IMG/VR virus record: IMGVR_UViG_3300023174_000329
Span: 1 to 40,217 of that record
From: a virus
DNA length: 40,217 bases
Strand: one strand, 5' to 3'
Made by a program: the position numbers and the translations under genes. This document shows positions 3,890 to 34,610 of the stretch, piece after piece (positions within the stretch are counted from its first letter, which is position 1; every line of letters starts with the position of its first letter). Below the pieces are notes generated by a model. It was given only the letters and a program-made list of their open reading frames with translations. It was not told the origin of the DNA and made no database searches.

Positions 3890-5143
3890 ATGGAACAACT
3901 AGAATTTTTTGAGAGGTTGGAAGAGATTAAGAAACCCATTTGTCCGGTTTGCAGTAATTTATTTAAATACAAATATAATAAAACATATTGTTCAGCAGAA
4001 TGTTATTCTTCTATACAAGGACATGGTGAAAAATATTGGGATTCTCTATTAAAAAAAGACAAGAAAGAATTAACAAAAAAAGAAAAAAAAGCATTAAAAG
4101 ATAAAAAATATAGAGAAACTCATGCAAAATATTTAAAAATAAAAAAGAAAGAATATGCTAAAGCCGTTAATTCAATTATTTCAAATAAAAGAAAACAGAA
4201 AGAAAAAGAAATATTTGATCTCTTATCTTCAAGAGAGGAAGAAAAAGAATGGATTCCACTAAAGGAGTGGGAAGACACGTATGAAATAAGACATAATAAA
4301 GAAACTGATGAAGTAGAGTTAAGATATAAACACAATAAAAAAATATTAAGTTCTTGTTTTTCTAAATGTAATGAATATTATTTGTATTATTTACAAAATA
4401 AAAATAAAAAGTCTAATATAGCAGTTCATGTTTTAGCGGCAAAAATATTTTTAAAAAATTCAAATAGTCTTCCATTCGTTAAACATAAAGATGGAGATAT
4501 TAAAAACAATAAAATATCAAATTTAACTTGGTCGGAAATCCCTAAAAGACTTGCAGAAAAATGTTCTAGTTTTAAGGGAATAATAAATGTTTATAAAGAT
4601 GGAATATTTTTATATTCACTTCGCGGTAAAAAGGAAATAAAAGATAAAGGATTTTGTGACTCTTTTGTTTATAAATGTGTTTATGGTATAAGCGAATCAC
4701 ATAAGGGATATACGTTTGAAAGACATGGTTTATCAGAAGAAGAAAAAAAAGAAAAACAAAAAATTTATTTAGAAAAAAAAATTAAAGATAGACCAAAAAA
4801 AGTAAAATATATGTCAGATCGTTTGAAAAATGATCCAGAATTTAAAATTCTTACTATGTTGAGAAAAAGAATTCTCAATGTAATAAAAGGTAAGAGGCGT
4901 TATAGATCAATAGATTTATTAGGTTGTACAGTTTCGGAAGCAAGAGTACATTTAGAAAAACAATTTAAAGAAGGAATGACATGGGATAATCATGGAAAAT
5001 ATGGTTGGCACATAGATCATATTATACCTTGTGCATCATTTGACCTTACAGATCCAGAACAACAAAAGAAATGCTTTCATTATACTAATTTGCAACCATT
5101 ATGGTGGAAAGAAAACATTTCCAAAGGTAATAAGATTATATGA
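3890..5143 (+). CDS. HNH homing-type endonuclease with zinc knuckle, NUMOD4-like and two HNH-like regions, 417 aa
   Basis: Free-standing mobile endonuclease. An N-terminal Cys4 knuckle (CPVCSNLF...YCSAEC, about 19-37) is followed by a Lys-rich helix. EWIPLKEWEDTYEIR (about 115-130) matches NUMOD4. VHVLAAKIFLKN...HKDGDIKNNKISNLTW (about 178-216) matches an HNH_3-type module. The C-terminus (about 345-415) has a second nuclease-like module, GWHIDHIIPC...FHYTNLQPLWWKENISKGNK, which recurs in the next gene. An enzyme of this type would cut DNA to spread its own locus. The gene is very AT-rich. Its TGA overlaps the next ATG (ATGA), coupling the two endonucleases. Confidence 0.9.
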   Translation: MEQLEFFERLEEIKKPICPVCSNLFKYKYNKTYCSAECYSSIQGHGEKYWDSLLKKDKKELTKKEKKALKDKKYRETHAKYLKIKKKEYAKAVNSIISNKRKQKEKEIFDLLSSREEEKEWIPLKEWEDTYEIRHNKETDEVELRYKHNKKILSSCFSKCNEYYLYYLQNKNKKSNIAVHVLAAKIFLKNSNSLPFVKHKDGDIKNNKISNLTWSEIPKRLAEKCSSFKGIINVYKDGIFLYSLRGKKEIKDKGFCDSFVYKCVYGISESHKGYTFERHGLSEEEKKEKQKIYLEKKIKDRPKKVKYMSDRLKNDPEFKILTMLRKRILNVIKGKRRYRSIDLLGCTVSEARVHLEKQFKEGMTWDNHGKYGWHIDHIIPCASFDLTDPEQQKKCFHYTNLQPLWWKENISKGNKII

Positions 5144-5757
5144 AGACTTATAGTAAAAATTGTATTATATGTAATAGAGAAATCACAGGTCTTCGGAAAA
5201 AAAAACTTTGTGACAATCAAGAATGTAAAAAACAAAATGCTAAAAACATTTCCACAAAGATACAACAAAATAGAACATTGGAAGAAAGAAAAAAACATGC
5301 TGAAATATGTAAAAAATGGAGAAAGAAGACAGGTTACAAAAATAAAAGAAAATACGGTAAAGGCACAGGTATAAAATATAAAATGATGTATAATCTTAAT
5401 GGTAGATTCCATCAGGCATTAAAGGCTCAAAACACTAAAAATAGTGGAAAGTGTCTAGAATTATTAGGATGTTCTATAGAATACTTTATGGATTATTTGG
5501 AAAGTAGATTTAAACAAGGAATGGTGTGGATGAATTATGGTCAATATGGCTGGCATTTGGATCACATCAAACCTTGCATAGCTTTTGATCTATCAGATAC
5601 CAAACAACAAGAGGAATGTTTTCACTACACAAACTTACAACCTCTATGGTGGTGGGAGAATATTTCAAAGAATGAAATGATTTCCCATCTTAAAAAATCT
5701 ATAGAGTTTAAAAATATTTTTACAAAACCCAATTTACAACACTCTAAGAGCCAATAA
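5140..5757 (+). CDS. HNH-type endonuclease, paralogue of the upstream C-terminal module, 205 aa
   Basis: N-terminal zinc knuckle (CIICNREI...LCDNQECKK), a basic linker, then LLGCSIEYFMDYLESRFKQG, GWHLDHIKPC and CFHYTNLQPLWWWENISKNE. This is clearly the same module as the last 75 residues of the upstream protein, so the pair arose by duplication of the nuclease domain. Catalytic His-Asp-His are visible in WHLDHIKP. It overlaps the upstream gene by 4 bp (ATGA). No late box precedes it, so it depends on the upstream transcript. Confidence 0.88.
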   Translation: MKTYSKNCIICNREITGLRKKKLCDNQECKKQNAKNISTKIQQNRTLEERKKHAEICKKWRKKTGYKNKRKYGKGTGIKYKMMYNLNGRFHQALKAQNTKNSGKCLELLGCSIEYFMDYLESRFKQGMVWMNYGQYGWHLDHIKPCIAFDLSDTKQQEECFHYTNLQPLWWWENISKNEMISHLKKSIEFKNIFTKPNLQHSKSQ

Positions 5758-5808: not shown

Positions 5809-6732
5809 TTATCTGTTATAAAAGAAAGATTTAAAACTAAGAGATTCCTTTATAGAAACTCCCATAACCTTATCCAATAATTTTTTAAGTCTAGTATCTT
5901 CCCCATTATAAAATTTTTTAGCAAATTTTAAATATATATTGATATGGTCTTGAAACTTTTTACTTTTAAAAAAATCCATAAGTATAGGAACCTCATCCGC
6001 AGAACCATATTTAATAATCAAATTAAGCAATATTTGTAAATCTTCTCCATAAGAATAAAAAAGTTTAGTTTCTTCTTCGTATTCTTTATTAGAATTTTTT
6101 AAAATATTTTTAAGATCTTTTGTCTGATCGATTATGTTATTAAACTCCTTATATAGTTCCGTTGTAAAATTATCAATATATTTATAAAAAGGATTGCCAT
6201 CATCCTCTTCAAAATTTTCTATAATATATGCTAAAGTAGCAATCGTATAATATCTTTCATTGCATATAGCTTCTATTATAAAATCAGGTATTTCGTGTGT
6301 ATAGTCTCGTTCCACCATATCCCTGAATATAAAATAACTTTCCTTTGGATAATCTTCATAAATATAAGCAAAGGATAAAGGAAAGGGAAAATTCTCTCTT
6401 ACAACCCCATAAATAAAATTTTCGGACATACTATCATTACTCTGAACACCTAATAAAACATCATTATATTTTTCATCTTCTATATCAAATCCTTTTTTAA
6501 GTAGAGTGTTTAATATATCAACACAAATAGATTCTACCTGTGGAAAATTTCCGTCATATCTTTCTTCTCTGGTTATTTCCGAAAACAATTCTTGAGGAAC
6601 TTCTTTACCTGAATTTATTAGATATATTATATAACCTTGAAGTTCAATAGTATATGAATTACCAAAAAGCCTAATAGGATCTATTTTACTTTTATGTATT
6701 ATAGCATAATCTAAATGGTTCAACTCAATCAT
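5809..6732 (-). CDS. Terminally tagged family protein, helical-repeat type, 307 aa
   Basis: Begins MIELNHLDYAIIHKS and ends ESLSFKSFFYNR, the paired end signatures of the family. The roughly 280-residue core has spaced VPQELFSEI / IPDFIIEAI / VPILMDFF segments, suggesting an alpha-solenoid. No catalytic motif is visible. It is the most downstream of three adjacent minus-strand paralogues (5809-8056). It has its own perfect TATAAATA box at 6749-6742, 9 nt before the ATG, so it is a late gene independent of its neighbours. Confidence 0.85.
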   Translation of the reverse strand: MIELNHLDYAIIHKSKIDPIRLFGNSYTIELQGYIIYLINSGKEVPQELFSEITREERYDGNFPQVESICVDILNTLLKKGFDIEDEKYNDVLLGVQSNDSMSENFIYGVVRENFPFPLSFAYIYEDYPKESYFIFRDMVERDYTHEIPDFIIEAICNERYYTIATLAYIIENFEEDDGNPFYKYIDNFTTELYKEFNNIIDQTKDLKNILKNSNKEYEEETKLFYSYGEDLQILLNLIIKYGSADEVPILMDFFKSKKFQDHINIYLKFAKKFYNGEDTRLKKLLDKVMGVSIKESLSFKSFFYNR

Positions 6733-6741
6733 ATATTAAAC

Positions 6742-6749
6742 TATTTATA
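6742..6749 (-). promoter_or_regulatory. T4-like late promoter box (TATAAATA)
   Basis: Exact TATAAATA on the minus strand, ending 9 nt before the ATG at 6732. It overlaps the 3' end of the upstream paralogue. Confidence 0.65.
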
Positions 6750-7392
6750 CTATATTCTTATAAAAAAAGGATCTGAACGATTCGGTCTTTACAGAATCGT
6801 CATCACCCAAAGAATTCAATAGTTTCCATGCGGATTTTGCATTTTCCTTTAATTTTTCGTTATTCCCTTTAGTGTTGCGGATATTATATAGACTCTGTAT
6901 GAATAAAGGATATTCTCTTTTACTTTTTTTCAGTCTCTTTAATAATATCACAGGCGGAACTATAAATGTTAAAAGATTAGTACATAAAAATCTAATTGAT
7001 ATATCGTGTACCTTATCCATATATTTTATTAAAATATCTTCGGGTATTTCTTTTTTAATATCAGTATAAGCAAAAATAACCCTAAGAATTCTATCTGGAT
7101 GACCGTTCATAGTTATATCCATGAACATATCATACATTTGTTTTTGTTTTGGATTTTTACTATTATTAGACTCATCACTTAAATATTCTCTAAATAATCC
7201 TAGCCCTATTTGCGGATCATACAAGTCCAATTCATTTTCACTTATTCCGACCCGACCATATAGACCATTATCCACTATATACATATTCAAAAGTTCACCA
7301 GCATCAAAATCATTTTTTAATATATTATGAATATACCTTCTTGGGTTTTTTTGCTTTACGATTATCTTACAGTCCATTATGTTAAGGTTCAT
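6745..7392 (-). CDS. Terminally tagged family protein, helical-repeat type, 215 aa
   Basis: Ends of the family are present: MNLNIMDCKIIVKQKNPR at the start and ESFRSFFYKNIV at the end. The core has IPEDILIKYM and VPPVILLKRL segments separated by about 33 residues, again suggesting helical repeats. Its N-terminal 30 residues are closest to those of the upstream neighbour (both KQKN followed by Arg), so the pair is a recent tandem duplication. A less perfect box (TATAAGAA, 7412-7405) lies 12 nt before the ATG. Function unknown. Confidence 0.85.
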   Translation of the reverse strand: MNLNIMDCKIIVKQKNPRRYIHNILKNDFDAGELLNMYIVDNGLYGRVGISENELDLYDPQIGLGLFREYLSDESNNSKNPKQKQMYDMFMDITMNGHPDRILRVIFAYTDIKKEIPEDILIKYMDKVHDISIRFLCTNLLTFIVPPVILLKRLKKSKREYPLFIQSLYNIRNTKGNNEKLKENAKSAWKLLNSLGDDDSVKTESFRSFFYKNIV

Positions 7393-7393
7393 A

Positions 7394-8056
7394 TTATTTT
7401 ATTTTCTTATAAAAAAAGGATTTAAAGGATTCTTGGTTTACCTGATTATCATTTTCCATTTCTTTCATCTCAAGCTTTTTCATACGATCATAGGTTTTTC
7501 TGATAGCGTTTTGAAGTTTTTTACTTGTAGCAACCGTATTAATTTGATATAGTCTATTTATAAACGATGTGGCTTGTTTATCGTCCTTTAAGAGAGTTGA
7601 TAAAAAATAATCAGGCGGAACTATATTATATTGGGATATGATATGAGAAACCAAATATCTAAATTGACCATAACCAAATTCCAAATAATGATCTATTAAT
7701 TCTTTCGGTATATTTTCTTCTCTTCCAATCTCAATAAAATTAGTAATAGATAAAAATACACTCGCCGCGCTTTCAGACTTTGAATATATTTCTATATACA
7801 TATCATATAATTTTTTTGCCAGAGGATTATTCGGGTCATCAAAATAATACATCAAGGATCTTTTCGAAAGATTGATATCATATAATTCCAATTCGATTTC
7901 AGGAATACCGATCTTTTCATACAATCTATTATTCCTAATATAAGAGAACAAATCCTTATTATTACCAAACGCCCCACGCATCAAAATGTTTATAGTAAAA
8001 TCACGAACATTTTTTTGCTTATATATAATATCAAAATCTAGTTCATTTAGTTTCAT
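7394..8056 (-). CDS. Terminally tagged family protein, helical-repeat type, 220 aa
   Basis: I choose the ATG at 8056 (MKLNELDFDIIYKQKN), because that places the family signature at residue 1; an in-frame TTG at 8071 would add five residues. The C-terminus is ESFKSFFYKKIK. The core has IPKELIDHYL and VPPDYFLSTL spaced like the neighbour's. A perfect late box at 8110-8103 lies too far upstream for this ATG but exactly 6 nt before a 17-codon ORF (8096-8043) that overlaps this start in another frame, so expression may involve coupling or frameshifting (inference). Confidence 0.82.
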   Translation of the reverse strand: MKLNELDFDIIYKQKNVRDFTINILMRGAFGNNKDLFSYIRNNRLYEKIGIPEIELELYDINLSKRSLMYYFDDPNNPLAKKLYDMYIEIYSKSESAASVFLSITNFIEIGREENIPKELIDHYLEFGYGQFRYLVSHIISQYNIVPPDYFLSTLLKDDKQATSFINRLYQINTVATSKKLQNAIRKTYDRMKKLEMKEMENDNQVNQESFKSFFYKKIK

Positions 8057-8096
8057 AATAGATTTTATCAAGAATTAGATGGTCAGAATCTTTCAT
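8043..8096 (-). CDS. 17-codon ORF encoding an ILLE-like leader
   Basis: Reads MKDSDHLILDKIYYETK then TGA. It parallels the MRDNDAILLESLY leader (M1, basic 2, D5, L9, acidic 10, Y13), with Asp in place of Glu10. The ATG stands 6 nt after a perfect TATAAATA box, the same spacing as full-length late genes, so this is the predicted first start codon of the transcript. It overlaps the ATG of the 220-aa gene in a different frame. It could be a leader peptide, a decayed tagged gene or the 5' part of a frameshift product. Confidence 0.4.
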   Translation of the reverse strand: MKDSDHLILDKIYYETK

Positions 8097-8866: not shown

Positions 8867-10396
8867 TTATGCGTTCGGGTTAGGATAGTCCACGATCTCG
8901 ACTAACTCATTGATCGCTCGGGTGATAGCAACATAGATCAGATTGTTTTCCTGAACCTTCTGCCAGTCTTTACGCGCCATCTTGGAAGGCATAAACTGCG
9001 GACGATCAAGGAGAAACACCCGATCCCATTCCAGTCCCTTGCTCTTGTGGACTGAGCAGAGAGTGAGGATGTTCTGCGGTTGCCCTTCAGCACTATCAGA
9101 GAACATAGAATCAATAAGCAGGATAACATCATTAACCGAATGCTGGTTCAATTCTTGGCAACGAGCAATAAGGGCGAGCAGAGTATTCACCTTATCACTA
9201 ACCTGTTCCATCATCATAGGTTCATCCTTCTTCTCCCATTTCTCCTGTTCACGCATGGAATAGGCATTGAGACGCTCGGTTAATTTAACGAGAGTCTGAA
9301 CACGCCACTTCTTACAAAGATTCTTCAAGCCTGTTCCAATGTCTTTACCTTCGATGCGGCACGGAATCCCTTGACGAATGAAGGAGAATGCCATCTTGGT
9401 TAGGGGAGCATTCTTGCGGCATAGGATAGCGTCATTGCCACTGAAGGAATAGGATGGAATAGCCTTGATAAACTCAGCATAGGTGGTGCTGGAAACCTTG
9501 CCATCTGGATTCTTGTCGAATGCCTCGATAGTCGGGTTGAATTGTTTTGCAAAGGCAATGATGTTCTTGCCACAACGATAGCAGATAGACAATGGCAAGG
9601 AAACCGCATTAAATGCTGTCTTGATGTTTTGCAAGGCATACGCATCCGCGCCAGTAAAGCCATAGATTGCCTGACCAGCATCGCCAACAGCAATCAATCG
9701 ACCATTCGGTTTCAGCATAGCTTGGGCAAGGGCGAGTTTTGTGGCGTTAATGTCTTGAGCCTCATCAATCAAGACATAATCGTATTGAAACAAACGCATC
9801 TTGAGAAGCAATGGCAGATAAACCATATCGTCAAAATCAATAGTCTTGAGATCGTTATTGCTGGCGACTAAAGCCTTGATTGCCATATCAATAGCATAGT
9901 CCATGTTGTAATCCTCCGCGCCTTCGGGCAAGGTAATGTCGTGATGTTCAATAACTTTCCACCATGATTCCTTGTCCATGATAGGGTGAATGAAACCGAA
10001 TCCCTCGGCCTTAGCGAATTTAACGAGCATCTTAATAGTGTATGCCATAACCTGTTCTTGAGGTTTAAGCATAGCATCAAGAATGCGCCCCACTTTTCCC
10101 TTGTTATCGTTCATCAATACTGGACGCATTCCCGCTTGTTTGAATGCCGAATTGCCGAATGAATGGCAAGTATTCGCATTCACATTCGGCAACCCCATTT
10201 GAGATAGCTTTAGCTGTAAAGCCTTAGCAATCTTAGAATTGAATGCCATCATTGCAATGTCACCTTGAAGGAGAGAAACCCCATGAAGGATAGTAGTTGA
10301 TTTTCCGCTTCCTGCTACTGCTTCGATAACCGCTGAACCTTCACCATGCTGCATGAAGTTGAATACTGCTTCTTGATAGGTTGACCAATTTTTCAT
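8867..10396 (-). CDS. UvrD/PcrA-like superfamily 1 DNA helicase, 509 aa
   Basis: ATP-driven 3'-5' helicase-type protein. Motifs in order: Walker A AVAGSGKST (about 26-34), motif II VLIDEAQD, motif III GDAGQAIYGF, motif IV SICYRC, motif V SVHKSKGLEWDRVFLL, motif VI NLIYVAITRA. It is shorter than cellular UvrD (about 720 aa), with a reduced 2B region, like other phage SF1 helicases. A role in replication or recombination is inferred. GC content is clearly higher than in the flanking late genes. Two promoters lie upstream (10522-10494 and 10715-10687), giving a leader of up to about 280 nt; a strong terminator follows. Tandem palindromes at 10826-10877 lie just beyond the distal promoter. Confidence 0.95.
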   Translation of the reverse strand: MKNWSTYQEAVFNFMQHGEGSAVIEAVAGSGKSTTILHGVSLLQGDIAMMAFNSKIAKALQLKLSQMGLPNVNANTCHSFGNSAFKQAGMRPVLMNDNKGKVGRILDAMLKPQEQVMAYTIKMLVKFAKAEGFGFIHPIMDKESWWKVIEHHDITLPEGAEDYNMDYAIDMAIKALVASNNDLKTIDFDDMVYLPLLLKMRLFQYDYVLIDEAQDINATKLALAQAMLKPNGRLIAVGDAGQAIYGFTGADAYALQNIKTAFNAVSLPLSICYRCGKNIIAFAKQFNPTIEAFDKNPDGKVSSTTYAEFIKAIPSYSFSGNDAILCRKNAPLTKMAFSFIRQGIPCRIEGKDIGTGLKNLCKKWRVQTLVKLTERLNAYSMREQEKWEKKDEPMMMEQVSDKVNTLLALIARCQELNQHSVNDVILLIDSMFSDSAEGQPQNILTLCSVHKSKGLEWDRVFLLDRPQFMPSKMARKDWQKVQENNLIYVAITRAINELVEIVDYPNPNA

Positions 10397-10545: not shown

Positions 10546-10574
10546 TTGACAGATTCAAAATTCTGTGCTATAAT
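10546..10574 (+). promoter_or_regulatory. Strong plus-strand sigma70 promoter facing the helicase leader
   Basis: TTGACA, 17 bp, TATAAT with TGTGC before the -10 (extended -10). It is oriented against all nearby genes and converges on the minus promoter at 10715-10687, about 110 bp apart. No plus-strand gene follows. Confidence 0.75.
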
Positions 10575-10686: not shown

Positions 10687-10715
10687 ATTATAGCACATTT
10701 TTTAAAATTTGTCAA
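10687..10715 (-). promoter_or_regulatory. Distal consensus sigma70 promoter (helicase)
   Basis: Minus strand TTGACA, 17 bp ending TGTGC, TATAAT, followed by AGATTTATCGTAGGGGAG. This extended sequence recurs at 15052, 15835, 16914 and 17097. Confidence 0.8.
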
Positions 10716-10825: not shown

Positions 10826-10877
10826 GGTTATTGAGAATGATTCTCAAGTAGGGTTATTGAGAATGATTCTCAAGTAG
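10826..10877. repeat. Two tandem 26-bp units with a Fur-box-like palindrome
   Basis: Two identical 26-bp units, each centred on TGAGAAT-G-ATTCTCA, a perfect 7-1-7 inverted repeat. This architecture is known for Fur-family sites (TGATAAT-n-ATTATCA). They lie between the stop of the zinc-ribbon gene and the distal helicase promoter, so they could be an operator. Confidence 0.6.
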
Positions 10878-16034: not shown

Positions 16035-16724
16035 TTACTTAACCACGAATCCGCTTTGGTCTTTTCGGCCTTTCCCCTTGGCTTTTAAACCGACTACAAC
16101 ATTTTTGCCATCCAGAAACCTTAAATCCGTTTCATCCCCATTCACCACAGCCTTGCCTTTCCATTCTTTAGGCAATTCACCAGCAAAGACCACAGCAACA
16201 TTTCCGCCTTGCCCTAAAACATTCTCAACGAATCCGTCATTGTCTTCTTTGCGGGAAAATGTTAGGTGATAGTTTTCTGGCAATTCTCCTTTCAAGAATT
16301 GCAACATACGGAAAGGATTCGGGGTATAGTCATAAAATTGAACATGGGGAAAGGTTTGCATAATTTCCCCGATATTATGCCAAGGTAAATCACTAGTGCC
16401 GTTTAATCGGATGCAAGGTGTCATTCCAGTTTTTGCGGCTTTTCGGACAACATAATCAATATCCTTCTTTAATTGATTGGAGAATGCTTTTCTATCCTCC
16501 AAGAATGCCATTGTTTTCCTCATACGGGCATTCTGGACATTTGAGAAAGCACCCATCCCCGCTGTATATAAACAAGCCGCTTTGCATCCAATAGAAGCAT
16601 GGGCGCAAAGATTCCGACCGCTTTCGTTTGCAGGGGAAAGATAAAGGATTCCCGTCATATATCCTTTACTCCTTCCTTTAATAGTTTTGGCGTTTGTGTC
16701 GATTGCAAGGTATTTAAGAGACAT
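16035..16724 (-). CDS. GP88-like conserved phage protein, 229 aa
   Basis: Contains LSPANESGRNLCAHASIGCKAACLYTAGMG (about 29-58), then NARMRKTMAFLEDRKAF, IRLNGTSDLPWHNI and VQFYDYTPNPFRML. This combination is typical of the phage 'gene product 88' type family found in many phages and plasmids, function unknown. The three clustered Cys (C-x7-C-x3-C) could bind a metal. Basic C-terminus (KGKGRKDQ). It has its own terminator and two or three promoters upstream (16798-16771, 16914-16886, 17097-17069), which suggests high early expression. Confidence 0.75.
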   Translation of the reverse strand: MSLKYLAIDTNAKTIKGRSKGYMTGILYLSPANESGRNLCAHASIGCKAACLYTAGMGAFSNVQNARMRKTMAFLEDRKAFSNQLKKDIDYVVRKAAKTGMTPCIRLNGTSDLPWHNIGEIMQTFPHVQFYDYTPNPFRMLQFLKGELPENYHLTFSRKEDNDGFVENVLGQGGNVAVVFAGELPKEWKGKAVVNGDETDLRFLDGKNVVVGLKAKGKGRKDQSGFVVK

Positions 16725-17264: not shown

Positions 17265-17377
17265 TATTTTGATTGTGGAATTTTTTTGGCCAAGTTTAAT
17301 AAGATAGTTTGGTAAAAGTATATCAGATTTTTAAATTTTTGTCAAGAAAAAAAATAAAAAAATAAAAAAAAATAAAT

Positions 17378-17506
17378 GCGAATGAGTCTCAATATCAAAA
17401 TTACAATGGGATACAAAGTAATTGATAATGAGTCTATCAATATCTATAAATGTATCCCAAGGTATCCCAATAGGTAATTTAATGTGATTTAATGTATCCC
17501 AAGGTA
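17378..17506. repeat. Palindrome plus GGGATACA repeat cluster
   Basis: GAATGAGTCTCAATATCA is followed by TACAATGGGATACA, the same two-part module as the 54-bp tandem repeats at 32449. It continues with AATGAGTCTATCAATATC and two copies of TGTATCCCAAGGTA (17451 and 17493) in inverted orientation. The rest of the gap from 17100 to 17632 shows no gene. Confidence 0.55.
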
Positions 17507-26511: not shown

Positions 26512-26589
26512 TGGCGGAGATGGCAGGACTCGAACCTGCATCATCCAATTATGCGCTTACTGATTAGAAGTCAGTGCCAATACACCTCC
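26512..26589 (-). tRNA. tRNA-Arg (UCU), apparently without a normal D-arm
   Basis: 7-bp acceptor stem (GGAGGTG with CATCTCC), discriminator G and encoded CCA. T-arm GCAGG-TTCGAGT-CCTGC. Anticodon arm ACTGA-CTTCTAA-TCAGT, so anticodon TCT. Only 7 nt (TATTGGC) separate acceptor and anticodon arms, too few for a D-arm. Instead 19 nt lie between anticodon and T arms and contain GCATAATTGGATGATGC, which looks like a D-arm. Total length is normal. Confidence 0.7.
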
Positions 26590-26596
26590 GTTAAAC

Positions 26597-26673
26597 TGGT
26601 GGGCTGTGTCGGATTCTAACCGACGATCCTTCGGTTATGAGCCGAACGCTTTGGAACGCTAAGCTAACAGCCC
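26597..26673 (-). tRNA. tRNA with CAU anticodon (Met, or Ile if modified)
   Basis: Acceptor GGGCTGT with ACAGCCC, discriminator A, encoded CCA. D-arm GCTT...AAGC. Anticodon arm TTCGG-CTCATAA-CCGAA. T-arm GTCGG-TTAGAAT-CCGAC. A complete cloverleaf. A G-C first pair and no run of three G-C pairs in the anticodon stem argue against an initiator; Ile (lysidine at C34) cannot be excluded. Confidence 0.9.
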
Positions 26674-27044: not shown

Positions 27045-27120
27045 TGGTAGCGGGTGATAGAATCGAACTATCCTAAAGATGCTTATGAGACACCCCAATT
27101 CGCCAGAATTGTAACCCGCA
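27045..27120 (-). tRNA. Second tRNA with CAU anticodon
   Basis: Six-pair acceptor GCGGGT/ACCCGC plus a T-T opposition at position 1:72, discriminator A, encoded CCA. D-arm CAATT-CTGGCG-AATTG. Anticodon arm GGTGT-CTCATAA-GCATC (two wobble pairs). T-arm GATAG-TTCGATT-CTATC. The unpaired first position recalls initiator tRNA, but the anticodon stem lacks the three G-C pairs, so identity (fMet, Met or Ile2) is open. It ends 2 bp before tRNA-Leu and is first in the cluster. Confidence 0.85.
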
Positions 27121-28512: not shown

Positions 28513-29487
28513 TTAGGAATTTTTCTTTACAAACTTGCCATCTTGTCCACGAACATTGTGGAACTTGTGACCGCTTGGTTTGTAACCATATCCTTTGTCT
28601 TTACAGAAGCAATGATTCTCGTCGCAGTCATTAGAGTATGTGCAATCGTTTTCGTTCTCGTATTCGTCAACCTCATCCAGTTCGTCAAGCTCATAGTCTC
28701 CACCATCGGAGGAATAGAGTTCGGAGTCGAAGCCAGATTCATCACGATTGAGTTTAGAACGCCAGTCTTCTTTGTATTCTGCAATTACTTCGTATCGGCA
28801 AGTGCGTCCCTTGGTGTTGTTGTAGTCTGCTGGAATTGCTACTACATCGCGGGGATTGATCTTGACGATCATTGTCTTGCCATTCTCTCCATCGGAGAAG
28901 TGTGGAAGATACTGAATCGAACAGAAGTGAAGTCCGTAGGAACAGGTGCGTTCCTTGTCCTCGTCAACCGCATTGCGAGGCATTTCACAAACTTTGCCCA
29001 CAGAGTTGTCAAACTTGCCAGAGTGAATGTCGAAGTAATTGCTACGAACATTCTTGAAGGCGAGGAAGTGACCATCCTCTGTGATTGGGAGTTCTCCTGC
29101 TTCAAGGAAGTCATAGAGTTCATCTACTGCTCGCTTGCTTGGATTGTCCATGAGGTTCTTGAAGAAGTTCAAGAGAGGTTCATGGGGAAGACCCTCACGC
29201 ATGAATGAGAGAATGCGCTTTGTGAGGGTATTGTGAATGATCTGACCATGATAGTTGATCGAACCATCCTTGATCTCCACTTCTGTTCCATCGAAGTATG
29301 ATTGAACCTGCTGACTGATGTTGACCAGATTGACGAATCCATTCCAATCTTTCGAGCGAACTGCTTCGAGTGCCTGTGAGTATTTCGGGTGATCGGTGTC
29401 AATCGTGTAGGATTGTCCGTTGATGGTAGCGGCGATTTTGCCGCTACCTGTGATGATGACTGCTGCTTGGTTGTTAGTGGTATTCAT
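28513..29487 (-). CDS. rIIB: rIIB-like protein, 324 aa
   Basis: Homologue of T4 rIIB, a membrane-associated early protein that with rIIA affects lysis timing and exclusion by lambda Rex. Recognised by LLNFFKNLMDNPSKRAVDELYDFLEAGELPITEDGHFLAFKNV (about 105-148), then DIHSGKFDNSVGKVCEMPRNAVDEDKERTCSYGLHFCS and INPRDVVAIPADYNNTKGRTCRYEV. The C-terminus is an unusual acidic and Cys/His tail (DELDEVDEYENENDCTYSND, then DENHCFCKDKGYG). It lies 33 bp after rIIA. GC content is above that of the late genes. Confidence 0.92.
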   Translation of the reverse strand: MNTTNNQAAVIITGSGKIAATINGQSYTIDTDHPKYSQALEAVRSKDWNGFVNLVNISQQVQSYFDGTEVEIKDGSINYHGQIIHNTLTKRILSFMREGLPHEPLLNFFKNLMDNPSKRAVDELYDFLEAGELPITEDGHFLAFKNVRSNYFDIHSGKFDNSVGKVCEMPRNAVDEDKERTCSYGLHFCSIQYLPHFSDGENGKTMIVKINPRDVVAIPADYNNTKGRTCRYEVIAEYKEDWRSKLNRDESGFDSELYSSDGGDYELDELDEVDEYENENDCTYSNDCDENHCFCKDKGYGYKPSGHKFHNVRGQDGKFVKKNS

Positions 29488-29520: not shown

Positions 29521-31518
29521 TTAGTTGGTTTTCTCTGTTTCGAGAATCGCTTCAAGCGTCTTCTCGACTCCCACCTGCCAACTATCACAGGAGAGATAAA
29601 ATAACTCTACCATCTTTGAAGGAAATGTCAACACATTTTTTCTTTCTTCGGTAGAAATATGTCGGAGGATTGATTCCAGTTTTCCAATCTCCTTCTTGAT
29701 TTCAAGAATGCTGTCAACAAAAATCTTAAATGGATTTGTGTCGGAGATTTTGGAATACATTTTGTTCTTCGATATATTGAGTGCTGTTCTAAATTCGATA
29801 TGCTTTGCAATCTGAATTCTGTCCCAAGAAAGTTTGGGTTGTTTTTTCTTGACAACATCTGCGAGGTTGGTGCTTCCAAGTGTGTCAAGGAATTTCGCAT
29901 TGTTTTTTGCTACCATGCGAACATCGGTGATGTCGATTCCTGCATACTGACAGAAATCATTTAGAGTTGACTTGTCTTTAATGGTCATCAACTTTTTACC
30001 ATCCGTTGATTTGAGTTCCATGCCGTCAAACTTCCAAGTAGAAACATCCTTGACAACATAATACTTGGGTGCTGTGCCAGTAGCGAGGTCGAAGCTATTG
30101 GATTCCCAAGAAGACTGATAGGTATTACCAATACTATAAAGAGAAATCATTCCCTTTGGCTTGCTGTTCTTGATGCTTCCTTTTCTGCTACCACTTGCAA
30201 TAGCAGGGAGAGTTGAAGTGGGAATGAAGACGCTTGCAGGGAATCCAGAAGCAATCAAATCTTTCATTGACTTTTGATCCACCAGATTGATTGAAATGTC
30301 GGCATTGGAATGTCCACGAATAAAGGTTGTCACTCGTTTATGTGATCCTCGTTTGAGGTCATCGAAATACCAGAGTGCATTGTTGCTCAAATCCGCATAT
30401 CCAGATACAGCGATTTTTGACCTTCCCCATCTTGTTTTAGAAAGAGATTGGAATGTGTCTTGACAGATTGCTTTGATTGATTTTCGAGGATCGGTGATGT
30501 CAACCTTGTTCCAGAATACTTTTCCGTTAATCAAAGTGGAATTAAGGAAACTCCATTGGTTGCTCAAGAGGTAGAGTGCCTTGAGAGCATCCAGAAGGTT
30601 TGGAGAGTTCTTGATCTGATCCTCGACTTTGGTGACGAAATCTTTCTTGACAAGAGCAATCTTGTCGTTGATTGCCTTGACAACCCAATCGTGATACATG
30701 AGTGATTCGCGGGAAGGAGTGACATCGAGTTCCCCAATATCGAATTTGATTACAAGTCCTGCTTTGCGAACAATGTCGTAATGTTCAGACTCGACTTTGT
30801 ATGTGTCGATTGGATATGTGACTCCCCCCATGACAGCATAGGATTGATGAAGATTGGAATAGGATTTCCAGAATGTTCCTTCAAAGTTTGCCTTGTCTGT
30901 CCAGTCAATAGAATCCCCTGTGATGATTGGTTTGACATCAAAGAAACGGAATGCTTTGAAGACAGCATAAGAGAAGTTTCCAATATCGGTCTGTTTAATT
31001 GGAATCTGAATTGCTACACCATTGGCATCCGTTGTGTTCTCCTGTGAGGCCAGAGAGATTGTGGGCATTCCGCTATTACCGAAATATGCGTTGTAGATAC
31101 GCTTAACTTGATTGTGAATCGAAGTGATCGTAAAGTTATCTGTATAGCAGAAGGGAGATTTACTACCGAGGCCGAGCATTCCTACTTGGGTGTTGGTGTT
31201 GGTTTTTGTGCTGGCGAAATATACGGAATAGATTTCGTAGATATTCTCATGGGAGATACCTGTGCCGAAATCTTGGATAGTCAACCAAGGTTCTAATGCG
31301 TTTGGAATGTGAACCGCAAAGGGAAGATTGGGTTGACCAGAAGCAATGTGAGAGTCCATTGCATTGCATCCGAGTTCTCGCACAATGGCGAGTGGTTTGT
31401 CAGAGTATAGGGAAGAAAGAATCTGGAATGCTTTCTGGCTATTACGCATTTTGAATTGCGCTTCTTCTTGGATAGTTCCGATTGATTCGATTGTGGTTTC
31501 TTTATCTTGAATAATCAT
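29521..31518 (-). CDS. rIIA: rIIA-like protein with GHKL ATPase domain, 665 aa
   Basis: Homologue of T4 rIIA. The N-terminal GHKL ATP-binding fold shows the N box VRELGCNAMDSHIASG (about 42-57), the G1 box QDFGTGIS and the G2 box GMLGLGSKSPFCYTDNF. Middle: VTPSRESLMYHDWVVKAI. T4 rIIA is 725 aa, so the length is close. With rIIB it forms an early two-gene unit. The promoter TTGACA-17-TAGTAT (31606-31578) is followed by a long C/A-only leader ending AGAAAGACCAACCAAAATG, with no Shine-Dalgarno. Confidence 0.93.
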   Translation of the reverse strand: MIIQDKETTIESIGTIQEEAQFKMRNSQKAFQILSSLYSDKPLAIVRELGCNAMDSHIASGQPNLPFAVHIPNALEPWLTIQDFGTGISHENIYEIYSVYFASTKTNTNTQVGMLGLGSKSPFCYTDNFTITSIHNQVKRIYNAYFGNSGMPTISLASQENTTDANGVAIQIPIKQTDIGNFSYAVFKAFRFFDVKPIITGDSIDWTDKANFEGTFWKSYSNLHQSYAVMGGVTYPIDTYKVESEHYDIVRKAGLVIKFDIGELDVTPSRESLMYHDWVVKAINDKIALVKKDFVTKVEDQIKNSPNLLDALKALYLLSNQWSFLNSTLINGKVFWNKVDITDPRKSIKAICQDTFQSLSKTRWGRSKIAVSGYADLSNNALWYFDDLKRGSHKRVTTFIRGHSNADISINLVDQKSMKDLIASGFPASVFIPTSTLPAIASGSRKGSIKNSKPKGMISLYSIGNTYQSSWESNSFDLATGTAPKYYVVKDVSTWKFDGMELKSTDGKKLMTIKDKSTLNDFCQYAGIDITDVRMVAKNNAKFLDTLGSTNLADVVKKKQPKLSWDRIQIAKHIEFRTALNISKNKMYSKISDTNPFKIFVDSILEIKKEIGKLESILRHISTEERKNVLTFPSKMVELFYLSCDSWQVGVEKTLEAILETEKTN

Positions 31519-32064: not shown

Positions 32065-32292
32065 TTACTGCCATTCGGGTGCAATAATCTCAATAGTCTT
32101 ACCAGATACGGAAACTTTTTGAATGATCTCGTATTCTGTCTTTGTATTCCTTGCCTTGTTGCGGGTAGAAAGAAGCAAAGCATTATTGATCTTCTTGGTG
32201 TATTCGTATCGGGCATCCTTATTGAGAAATGCGCGTGTGTTCTTGTTCTGGATAACCCAAAACTGATTCTTGTTTTTTGTTGTTGTCTTCAT
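32065..32292 (-). CDS. Small basic early protein, 75 aa
   Basis: MKTTTKNKNQFWVIQNKNTRAFLNKDARYEYTKKINNALLLSTRNKARN, with a C-terminal EIIQKVSVSGKTIEIIAPEWQ. Basic N-terminal half, beta-prone C-terminus. Not recognised. It is the first gene of the minus early block, behind a promoter at 32332-32305 and another at 32427-32399. Confidence 0.68.
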   Translation of the reverse strand: MKTTTKNKNQFWVIQNKNTRAFLNKDARYEYTKKINNALLLSTRNKARNTKTEYEIIQKVSVSGKTIEIIAPEWQ

Positions 32293-32398: not shown

Positions 32399-32427
32399 AT
32401 TTTAGCACATTTTTTAATTTTTGTCAA
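32399..32427 (-). promoter_or_regulatory. Distal sigma70 promoter (gene at 32292)
   Basis: Minus strand TTGACA, 17 bp ending TGTGC, TAAAAT. Same family as the distal promoters at 10.7, 15.0, 15.8, 16.9 and 17.1 kb, but without the AGATTTATCGTAGG follower. Confidence 0.65.
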
Positions 32428-32448: not shown

Positions 32449-32556
32449 ATTGAGAATGAGTTTCAATATCATAAAATACATTGGGATACATTGTAATTTT
32501 TTATTGAGAATAAGTCTCAATATCATGTAATGCAATGGGATACATTGTAATTTGAG
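32449..32556. repeat. Two tandem 54-bp repeats with palindrome and GGGATACA box
   Basis: Each unit begins ATTGAGAATnAGT(T/C)TCAATATCAT (an imperfect palindrome related to the 10.83-kb sites), then CA(T/A)TGGGATACATTGTAATTT. The two differ at only a few positions. They lie between the outermost early promoter and the first late gene, at the early/late boundary. A third, diverged copy is at 17378. Confidence 0.7.
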
Positions 32557-32621: not shown

Positions 32622-33137
32622 ATGGGATTTAGATTTAATAATTTTGATTGTAAATTAATATATAACAATTCAAATTCAAAACTTTTAGAAGCAATGTGTA
32701 AAAAACATAATGCTTTTTTCGGTTTTAGGTATCTTGATTATCTTTTAGATGATATGAAAGATATACCAAATGAATTATTATCAAATCTTTCAAAATTTGC
32801 ATCTCCGTATGAATTACATCATATAGTCGAAAGATTATTAGGTTATCAAGTAGATGTTCCTGATTTTGTTTTAGAAAATATATCAAAAATAGGAGTTTCT
32901 TCTTATAAAACTTGTAGAATATATATAGAAAATAAAAAAATTCCTCCAGATATTATAATAAGAGGTATGGTAAATACATGGAACGATTTAGGCAAAGGAA
33001 ATTTTTTAATATTTTTAGCAAATAAAATAAAAGAAGAAAGTATGATTAATAAAATAAAAAATAAAATCGCAGAAATCGAAAAGGAAGAATCGGTTAAGCA
33101 AGAATCATTTAGTTTCAAATCCTACTTCATGCGGTAA
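32622..33137 (+). CDS. Terminally tagged family protein, helical-repeat type, 171 aa
   Basis: MGFRFNNFDCKLIYNNS at the start and KQESFSFKSYFMR at the end. The core contains IPNELLSNLSKF, VPDFVLENISKI and IPPDIIIRGMVN at about 30-40 residue steps, so at least three helical repeats. The last 21 bp of the tag region are identical in DNA to those of the next two genes. A late box lies 5 nt before the ATG and there is no Shine-Dalgarno. Very AT-rich. Function unknown. Confidence 0.85.
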   Translation: MGFRFNNFDCKLIYNNSNSKLLEAMCKKHNAFFGFRYLDYLLDDMKDIPNELLSNLSKFASPYELHHIVERLLGYQVDVPDFVLENISKIGVSSYKTCRIYIENKKIPPDIIIRGMVNTWNDLGKGNFLIFLANKIKEESMINKIKNKIAEIEKEESVKQESFSFKSYFMR

Positions 33138-33138
33138 T

Positions 33139-33182
33139 GCTGCACCATGTTTTATTTTTACATGGTGTTCTATTAAAACAGC
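33139..33182 (+). repeat. Dispersed intergenic element, copy 4 (hairpin form)
   Basis: CACCATGT-N9-ACATGGTG forms a perfect 8-bp hairpin, followed by TTCTATTAAAACAGC. It lies directly after the stop at 33137 and directly before the AATAAGTA box, so it could separate two late units. Confidence 0.6.
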
Positions 33183-33190
33183 AATAAGTA
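33183..33190 (+). promoter_or_regulatory. T4-like late promoter box (AATAAGTA)
   Basis: AATAAGTA ends 7 nt before the ATG at 33198. Confidence 0.5.
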
Positions 33191-33197
33191 TTTTTTT

Positions 33198-34022
33198 ATG
33201 CGATTAAATAAACTGGATTATATAATACTTATTAAAAGTTTTAATGATAATAATGTAAATAAAAAATTAAGATTATTTATAAAAGCCTCAAAAGATAATG
33301 GATATCAATTAGTATATTTAGCAGAAGCATTTGAAAAAGTGTTTCCCGATAAAGAACTACCTGATGTAATAAAAGAATATTTTGAAATTTCTTATATTTC
33401 TAGTATTAGTCTTTATATATGTGATTTTATATTAAATAAAAACGAAAAGCCTCCAGTATGGACTATTAATGCTTTTTTTAGGAACATTGATAACAATAAA
33501 AGAATAACCCCCGATGTTACTGTTTCTGCTAAATCTTCGGATATTATTGATTATTATTTATCGATTTTAAATTTTGATGATATTGATATAAGATTTTTTT
33601 ATTATTTGAGTAATTGGAAAGATTATCACCATATGCTATATAAATTGGATAAAAAAATAAATATCGAAAAAAATAAAAATAATCCTAAAATCAAAAAAAT
33701 ATTAGATTTACCAATATATTTAGATTATAATCGAATGCATTTTTTACTATTGATAAAACAAATATTTGAAGATATGTATGATGTTGTTAAGGTTGTTGGT
33801 GATGATAACAAAACGCCTTGGGCATTGTTTGGAAATGCTTTAAAAAATACAGGTACATTAGATAAATGGATAACACATGCAATAGAAAAACATAATATAC
33901 GTAAACCTTTAATAGACGCAATTATGAGTTTAGGTATTGAATATAAAGATTTACCAGATTCTTTAAAGGAAGATAAAGTAAAAAAGGAATCATTTAGTTT
34001 CAAATCCTACTTCATGCGGTAA
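33198..34022 (+). CDS. Terminally tagged family protein, helical type, 274 aa
   Basis: MRLNKLDYIILIKSFND at the start and KKESFSFKSYFMR at the end, the last 11 residues identical to the preceding gene. Core segments LPDVIKEYFEISY, KPPVWTINAFFRN and ITPDVTVSAKSSD suggest helical repeats, but the sequence is otherwise unlike its neighbours. Preceded by the hairpin element and a late box. Function unknown. Confidence 0.85.
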   Translation: MRLNKLDYIILIKSFNDNNVNKKLRLFIKASKDNGYQLVYLAEAFEKVFPDKELPDVIKEYFEISYISSISLYICDFILNKNEKPPVWTINAFFRNIDNNKRITPDVTVSAKSSDIIDYYLSILNFDDIDIRFFYYLSNWKDYHHMLYKLDKKINIEKNKNNPKIKKILDLPIYLDYNRMHFLLLIKQIFEDMYDVVKVVGDDNKTPWALFGNALKNTGTLDKWITHAIEKHNIRKPLIDAIMSLGIEYKDLPDSLKEDKVKKESFSFKSYFMR

Positions 34023-34023
34023 T

Positions 34024-34066
34024 GCTACACCATGTTTTATTTTTACATGGTGTTCTATTAAAACAA
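34024..34066 (+). repeat. Dispersed intergenic element, copy 5 (hairpin form)
   Basis: CACCATGT-N9-ACATGGTG hairpin then TTCTATTAAAACAAC, after the stop at 34022 and before the late box. Confidence 0.6.
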
Positions 34067-34067
34067 C

Positions 34068-34075
34068 AATAAGTA
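34068..34075 (+). promoter_or_regulatory. T4-like late promoter box (AATAAGTA)
   Basis: AATAAGTA ends 7 nt before the ATG at 34083. Confidence 0.5.
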
Positions 34076-34082
34076 TACAAAA

Positions 34083-34610
34083 ATGATTACTTTAAATAAT
34101 TTTGATATAAAATTAATAAATAAAAGTTCTATAAAAAAAATATATCAAAATATAAAAATTTCACCATATAACATAAAAACTGTGGATATGCCTAATATAG
34201 AAGAATGTAAAGGTTTTATATCTGACTTTTCTAATGTAGTAAACCTGAAATCTTTAAAAAAATGTTTATATTTTCGTTGCAGTTCTCCTATAATAGATTT
34301 ACCTAAATTGGAATATGCTGGAGAAATTAATGTCACTTATTCAAACACTATATATCTTCCAAAATTAAAAATAGTGAAAGATGAACTATGGTTTAATTCG
34401 GCCAAAGAAATATACTTATACACATTAGAGGAAGCTCAACGTATATCATGTGGAAATGCAAAACTTTTAGTTATACCGAAAAAATTTGCTCTTGAAAAAT
34501 TAAACGATAAAAAAACATTTACGATAAATTCTGACTGTGAAATAGTTTATACTGAAAATTATATTAAAAAGGAATCATTTAGTTTCAAATCCTTTTTTAG
34601 TAGAAATTAA
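34083..34610 (+). CDS. Terminally tagged family protein with leucine-rich-repeat-like core, 175 aa
   Basis: The ends are those of the family (MITLNNFDIKLINKSS and KKESFSFKSFFSRN), but the core is different. Strand-turn units such as LKSLKKCLYFRC, LPKLEYAGEINVTYSN, LPKLKIVKDELWFNS and LYTLEEAQRISCGN, about 20-22 residues apart, resemble BspA-type leucine-rich repeats. So the same terminal tags are attached to a beta-repeat fold instead of helical repeats. A late box lies 7 nt before the ATG. Confidence 0.85.
   Translation: MITLNNFDIKLINKSSIKKIYQNIKISPYNIKTVDMPNIEECKGFISDFSNVVNLKSLKKCLYFRCSSPIIDLPKLEYAGEINVTYSNTIYLPKLKIVKDELWFNSAKEIYLYTLEEAQRISCGNAKLLVIPKKFALEKLNDKKTFTINSDCEIVYTENYIKKESFSFKSFFSRN

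Follow-up and report, generated by a model that had tools for sequence, protein, structure and literature searches.

Candidate Fur boxes upstream of strong promoters in an rII-bearing phage, and their clustering in other phages

Introduction

Two 54-bp units stand in tandem where two gene blocks of a phage genome diverge, and the question they raise is which protein reads them, one of the phage or one of its host. In many habitats bacterial growth is limited by iron, which bacteria sense through the protein Fur, and one half of each unit resembles the operators of bacterial iron genes. Here, we analyzed the window, meaning the whole stretch of DNA that holds the units, a 40,217-base virus record from IMG/VR, and compared its repeats with those of bacteria and of other phages.

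Results

A 54-bp repeat between divergent gene blocks

The window is probably one part of a larger phage with rII genes, because rIIA, an rIIB-like gene and a phage DNA helicase gene are present; no near match to its first 25 kb was found among INPHARED phages. Minus-strand genes span about 8.3 to 32.3 kb and are mostly 31-45% GC, while the blocks flanking them are mostly 23-31% GC. The following genes are referred to below.

8867-10396, minus strand: phage DNA helicase gene, downstream of site C
16035-16724, minus strand: GP88 (PF17338) gene, downstream of site B, with further promoters between
28513-29487: rIIB-like gene
29521-31518: rIIA
32065-32292, minus strand: 75-aa gene, downstream of site A, no family above cut-off

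The first plus-strand gene starts at 32622, and the 54-bp units lie in the gap between it and the minus-strand block. The plus-strand block is plausibly "late." No relative of the 75-aa gene was found among viral contigs.

Elsewhere in the window, a paralogous protein family is encoded at 5809-8071 and 32622-34610, with a common C-terminal tail such as ESFSFKSYFMR and no known family for the members scanned. The DNA of an HNH-like gene stretch at 4937-5133, perhaps a mobile homing endonuclease, is 78-83% identical in the otherwise diverged relatives L097, L309 and L397. ARAGORN and Rfam concur on a tRNA at 26600-26673, and each calls a second one without the other's support (26515-26589, 27045-27120). 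A 51-bp repeat, intergenic and containing hairpin-like parts (for example ACCATGTTTTATTTTTACATGGTGTTCTATTAAAACA), is dispersed over the window (8745, 11443, 18034, 33130, 34015 and 36429) and also occurs in the relatives L097, L098 and L309; these copies are perhaps terminators or late-gene signals.

Three sites carry the same palindrome

The units at 32449-32502 and 32503-32556 are identical at 45 of 54 positions by direct reading, which bears out the tandem repeats that a sequence-only reading of this DNA had described. Each consists of TGAGAAT-n-AGTYTCA, ATATCA, three bases and then a second palindrome. The first palindrome has the core TGAGAATnATTCTCA, often with WTATCA next to it, and boxes of this AGTCTCAATATCA type, which we call Fur-like, occur at three sites.

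32451-32471 (core 32451-32465), plus strand: site A, Fur-like box 1, TGAGAATGAGTTTCAATATCA
32505-32525 (core 32505-32519), plus strand: site A, Fur-like box 2, TGAGAATAAGTCTCAATATCA
17377-17397 (core 17377-17391), plus strand: site B, Fur-like box, TGCGAATGAGTCTCAATATCA
17423-17444, plus strand: site B, degenerate box with three mismatches to the core, TGATAATGAGTCTATCAATATC
10832-10846, plus strand: site C, perfect Fur-like box 1, TGAGAATGATTCTCA
10858-10872, plus strand: site C, perfect Fur-like box 2, TGAGAATGATTCTCA

Site B had been noticed before as a recurrence of the motif pair within the early block, and the pair is indeed there (17377-17391 and 17400-17422). Site C had been overlooked; it holds perfect copies of TTGAGAATGATTCTCAA at 10831-10847 and 10857-10873, 26 bp apart and without the second motif. 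The placement first proposed, where divergent blocks meet, holds for site A alone, the other two sites being within the minus-strand block. A search with TGAGAATRADTCTCA at no more than one mismatch gave seven strand-hits at five places, against 0.02 expected from dinucleotide shuffles, and none of 100 shuffles held seven. None of the three sites has an Rfam match.

Tandem units in AT-rich DNA could also be replication iterons, as the sequence-only reading had suggested, or an array recognized in packaging by terminase. The layout speaks against both. There are two units per site with one or two strong boxes, the spacings are unequal (54, 46 and 26 bp), and the sites, three in all, are spread across 22 kb, each upstream of a promoter. 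No composition switch is confined to any site, and no initiator or terminase was recognized among the neighbors scanned, which took in part of the small ORFs. In bacterial genomes, moreover, the same motif is an iron operator. We therefore consider an iteron or packaging array very improbable, even with the terminase-linked arrays of other phages described below.

The palindrome corresponds to Fur boxes of the Enterococcus type

We scanned 84,980 prokaryote genomes with the pattern TGAGAATRADTCTCAWTATCA and found it in 114 stretches, mostly intergenic and near gene starts, in Pelagibacter, Enterococcus, Trichococcus, Planctomycetes, Leptospiraceae and others. Among 51 adjacent or downstream proteins, FecCD permeases were the top family (five), and iron-type solute-binding proteins (four), ABC ATPases (three), TonB receptors (two) and an Fe2+ transport protein (one) also occurred; one neighbor of the pattern was a FUR protein.

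The closest characterized counterpart is the Fur box of E. faecalis, a 7-1-7 inverted repeat, and iron-transport genes behind the identical 15-mer are up 12- to 18-fold when fur is mutated (PMC6056675). Site C reproduces this box without a mismatch (TGAGAATGATTCTCA, 15/15). Sites A and B match it at 13 of 15 positions, with two differences, a score that the best shuffle also reached. Compared by sequence, the phage boxes differ from the E. faecalis box in being paired or tandem, in lying upstream of the -35 and in having no known iron gene behind them. When only the Fur consensus of E. coli or of B. subtilis was used for comparison, the window boxes were not above chance, and the assignment to Fur therefore rests on the TGAGAAT type. 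On this comparison, the palindrome half of the unit reads as an Enterococcus-type Fur box.

A second palindrome is paired with the box at two sites

The other half of the unit is a palindrome close to ATTACAATG-ggata-CATTGTAAT, present in three copies and, at site B, followed by reversed half sites.

32475-32497, plus strand: site A, second motif copy 1, AATACATTGGGATACATTGTAAT
32529-32551, plus strand: site A, second motif copy 2, AATGCAATGGGATACATTGTAAT
17400-17422, plus strand: site B, second motif copy 3, ATTACAATGGGATACAAAGTAAT
17451-17501, minus strand: three reversed second-motif half sites (TGTATCCC-type), TGGGATACA at 17451 and 17493 and TGGGATACC, with one mismatch, at 17461

At two mismatches, ATTACAATGGGATACATTGTAAT had three matches in the window and none in shuffles, and the second motif always starts 23-24 bp from the start of the Fur-like box. 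Additional boxes had been reported as far as 17506; half sites do lie there, at 17451, 17461 and 17493, but the half site TGGGATACA by itself was not significant at one mismatch (12 vs 8.3). As far as we searched, the second palindrome is confined to the window. The sole viral match of AATGGGATACATTGTAA fell inside a tail-like gene of an unrelated phage, and we dropped the idea that the motif is an element of general occurrence.

At sites A and B, where it accompanies the Fur box, the second palindrome is probably the operator of a different regulator. The idea of one regulator is supported for the first half of the unit, likely read by a Fur-family protein, probably that of the host; Fur does not account for the second motif. 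Alternatively, a regulator encoded by the phage, or a host regulator other than Fur, could act through the boxes, their similarity to Fur boxes being due to convergence or descent; the two palindromes of a unit would then be read by a single complex or by a pair of phage proteins. The pairing of the box, at a fixed distance, with a second palindrome that we found in this phage only favors such an arrangement, as does the incompleteness of the genome. We nevertheless judge it unlikely, given that identity over 15 to 21 bases with boxes before bacterial iron genes would be hard to reach by convergence.

All three sites lie upstream of strong promoters

Each site is upstream of a near-consensus minus-strand sigma-70 promoter with an extended -10 TG.

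32399-32427, minus strand: sigma-70 promoter downstream of site A, TTGACA-17-TAAAAT, TG before the -10
17317-17345, minus strand: sigma-70 promoter downstream of site B, TTGACA-17-TATACT, TG before the -10
10687-10715, minus strand: sigma-70 promoter downstream of site C, TTGACA-17-TATAAT, TG before the -10

From box center to the first base of the -35, the distance is 31 and 85 bp at site A, 39 bp at site B, and 124 and 150 bp at site C, and no box overlaps any of the three core promoters. Box 1 of site A doubles as a weak plus-strand promoter (TTGAGA-16-TAAAAT), which may be chance. Near-consensus plus-strand sigma-70 promoters are also present at 10546, 12804 and 17236, pointing into minus-strand genes; they may drive antisense or small RNAs, and Rfam had no match at these three positions.

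Our favored reading, to which we give somewhat better than even chances, is that host Fur, loaded with iron, binds at the three sites and modulates the early promoters downstream of them. In an iron-replete host, Fur charged with Fe2+ would sit on the paired boxes, 30-150 bp upstream of the -35 boxes, and modulate the three strong minus-strand promoters. Because the boxes are upstream of the -35 in AT-rich DNA, the effect could have either sign: bound Fur might repress by spreading along the AT-rich DNA, or it might act as an upstream anti-silencer, as at E. coli ftnA. Part of the early gene expression of the phage would thereby be tied to host iron status. We infer Fur binding at the sites, the sign of its effect and the benefit to the phage. 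Several observations count against Fur: the boxes are upstream of the core promoters, unlike in classical repression, the genes downstream of the sites have no known iron role, and relatives are without the sites. Predicted boxes are, furthermore, often not bound, a warning given in the paper that proved PhoB sites on a phage (PMC10976474).

Box arrays recur in unrelated phages

The sequence-only reading had looked to further copies elsewhere as a test of the repeats, and more were found both in the window and in many phages. In a viral collection, TGAGAATRADTCTCAWTATCA occurred in 114 stretches vs 0 for the reversed control, and 89 of 118 viral matches were intergenic by a rough gene call. 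The carrier phages are unrelated and range from 28 to 61% GC, a recurrence that would be hard to explain by convergence on the operator of some other regulator. After dereplication, two or more boxes within 150 bp were present at 33 of 56 viral loci vs 7 of 64 bacterial loci; at most six of the viral spacings are overlapping half-shifted sites, and the contrast between viruses and bacteria is unchanged by them. Array copies found by the 15-base core alone have a symmetric TGnTAW/WTAnCA extension, the pattern that overlapping Fur sites should give, and the canonical TGATAATGATTATCA is found among them.

Searching for a Fur gene gave 0 of 26 viral records, including the window, and 13 of 14 control genomes by the same search; the viral records are mostly fragments, and a non-viral origin is possible for some of the IMG/VR contigs. 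The lack of a Fur gene in these records makes host Fur the likely reader. INPHARED phages and plasmids yielded no array match, the best result of the phage search being a 26-bp match at E 0.4. Searches of the open-access literature turned up no account of arrays of Fur boxes in lytic phages.

Clustering far more frequent than in bacteria might indicate a decoy, in which the boxes titrate host Fur from a multi-copy phage genome and derepress host iron uptake while phage genes stay uncontrolled. Multicopy Fur boxes do titrate Fur in a standard assay (PMC6071977), and the genes adjoining the boxes vary from phage to phage. Five boxes per genome are few for titration, however, and all three sites of the window lie upstream of strong promoters. 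Arrays elsewhere also lean towards pairs of divergent genes and away from convergent pairs: among arrays with two neighbors, 9 of 39 were between divergent genes and 3 of 39 between convergent genes, against a baseline of 109/973 and 119/973, respectively. We regard a decoy, with a phage-encoded reader the chief rival, as quite unlikely and retain the modulation of promoters by host Fur.

In L013, L045, L169 and L234, arrays lie near the start of terminase small subunit genes (127-234 bp away), which is in favor of the packaging array considered above. The L013 array has five copies at an exact 31-bp spacing. In one clade, arrays adjoin a phrog_1924 tail gene.

Close relatives lack the sites

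Conservation in relatives, which had also been named as a test, was not found. Two contigs with an rIIA 92-93% identical to that of the window had no box even at three or fewer mismatches. In these rIIA relatives, L097 and L098, TTTTGTATGACAATAG occurs at least three times at about 9780-9930, upstream of rIIA, forming a different, operator-like array at a comparable place. We rejected conservation of site A, as the L097/L098 DNA upstream of rIIA is unrelated and has other repeats, and the 75-aa gene is without a relative in viral contigs. L309, whose gene order is similar, has direct and inverted repeats of TTGTAAGATAA upstream of GP88 at about 500-620, replacing the Fur boxes. Weak box matches in the relative G032 were discarded: the three strongest or most palindromic, inspected individually, lie in genes and form no promoter array.

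The absence of the sites from relatives suggests a quick turnover of such operators. Quick turnover fits adaptation to the regulator of the host; it fits equally well the alternative of a phage regulator, since relatives carrying other repeats at comparable places are what fast-evolving phage regulators would leave.

GP88-group genes occur beside some arrays

Among viral loci, 24 of the 60 with arrays and 4 of the 54 with a single box have a gene of the group GP88/DUF7227/phrog_2554/phrog_1392, compared with 0 of 74 control loci. Once loci were clustered by DNA similarity, the association was 6/30 vs 0/25 (p=0.027), which is suggestive only. GP88 has three invariant cysteines (C40, C47 and C51). 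Its predicted structure is confident (pLDDT 91), although the single-sequence model is poor. A search for a known iron-sulfur fold gave no significant PDB match, the best being TIM-barrel-like at E 0.017, and to call GP88 an iron-sulfur protein is a guess.

A conserved pairing of Fur control with GP88 was rejected, as nearly all of 78 window-type GP88 loci lack such boxes. L365 has the sole array among them, three boxes of the related type TGCGAATGATTCGCA at 5128-5269, upstream of GP88; a different group of hosts may have Fur boxes of the TGCGAATGATTCGCA type.

Discussion

Host Fur acting on a phage-borne promoter has a precedent in the Fur-regulated Shiga toxin 1 promoter of lambdoid prophages. 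That promoter serves an accessory toxin gene of a temperate phage, whereas the candidate targets here are early genes of a large rII-bearing phage. For lytic phages, the known example of wiring to a host nutrient regulator that we found concerns phosphate: cyanophage promoters with PhoB/Pho boxes likewise join lytic phage genes to a host operator, and there binding is proven (PMC10976474), while the part of iron and Fur in the present phage is read from sequence. The position of the boxes has its counterpart at E. coli ftnA, where several Fur sites also lie far upstream of the promoter (reviewed in PMC3788343); ftnA is a host ferritin gene with TGATAAT-type boxes, at which Fur relieves H-NS silencing.

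Taking the other phages into account, tandem Fur-box arrays could be a widespread and repeatedly acquired phage device that senses host iron or titrates Fur, often adjoining cysteine-rich GP88/DUF7227 proteins that are possibly iron-sulfur enzymes; we put this forward tentatively, at somewhat less than even confidence. The clustered boxes carried by many unrelated phages are simple sequences that standard Fur assays can test. If Fur reads them, the iron status of the host would feed into the lytic program of a large phage, or the phage would derepress the iron uptake of its host.
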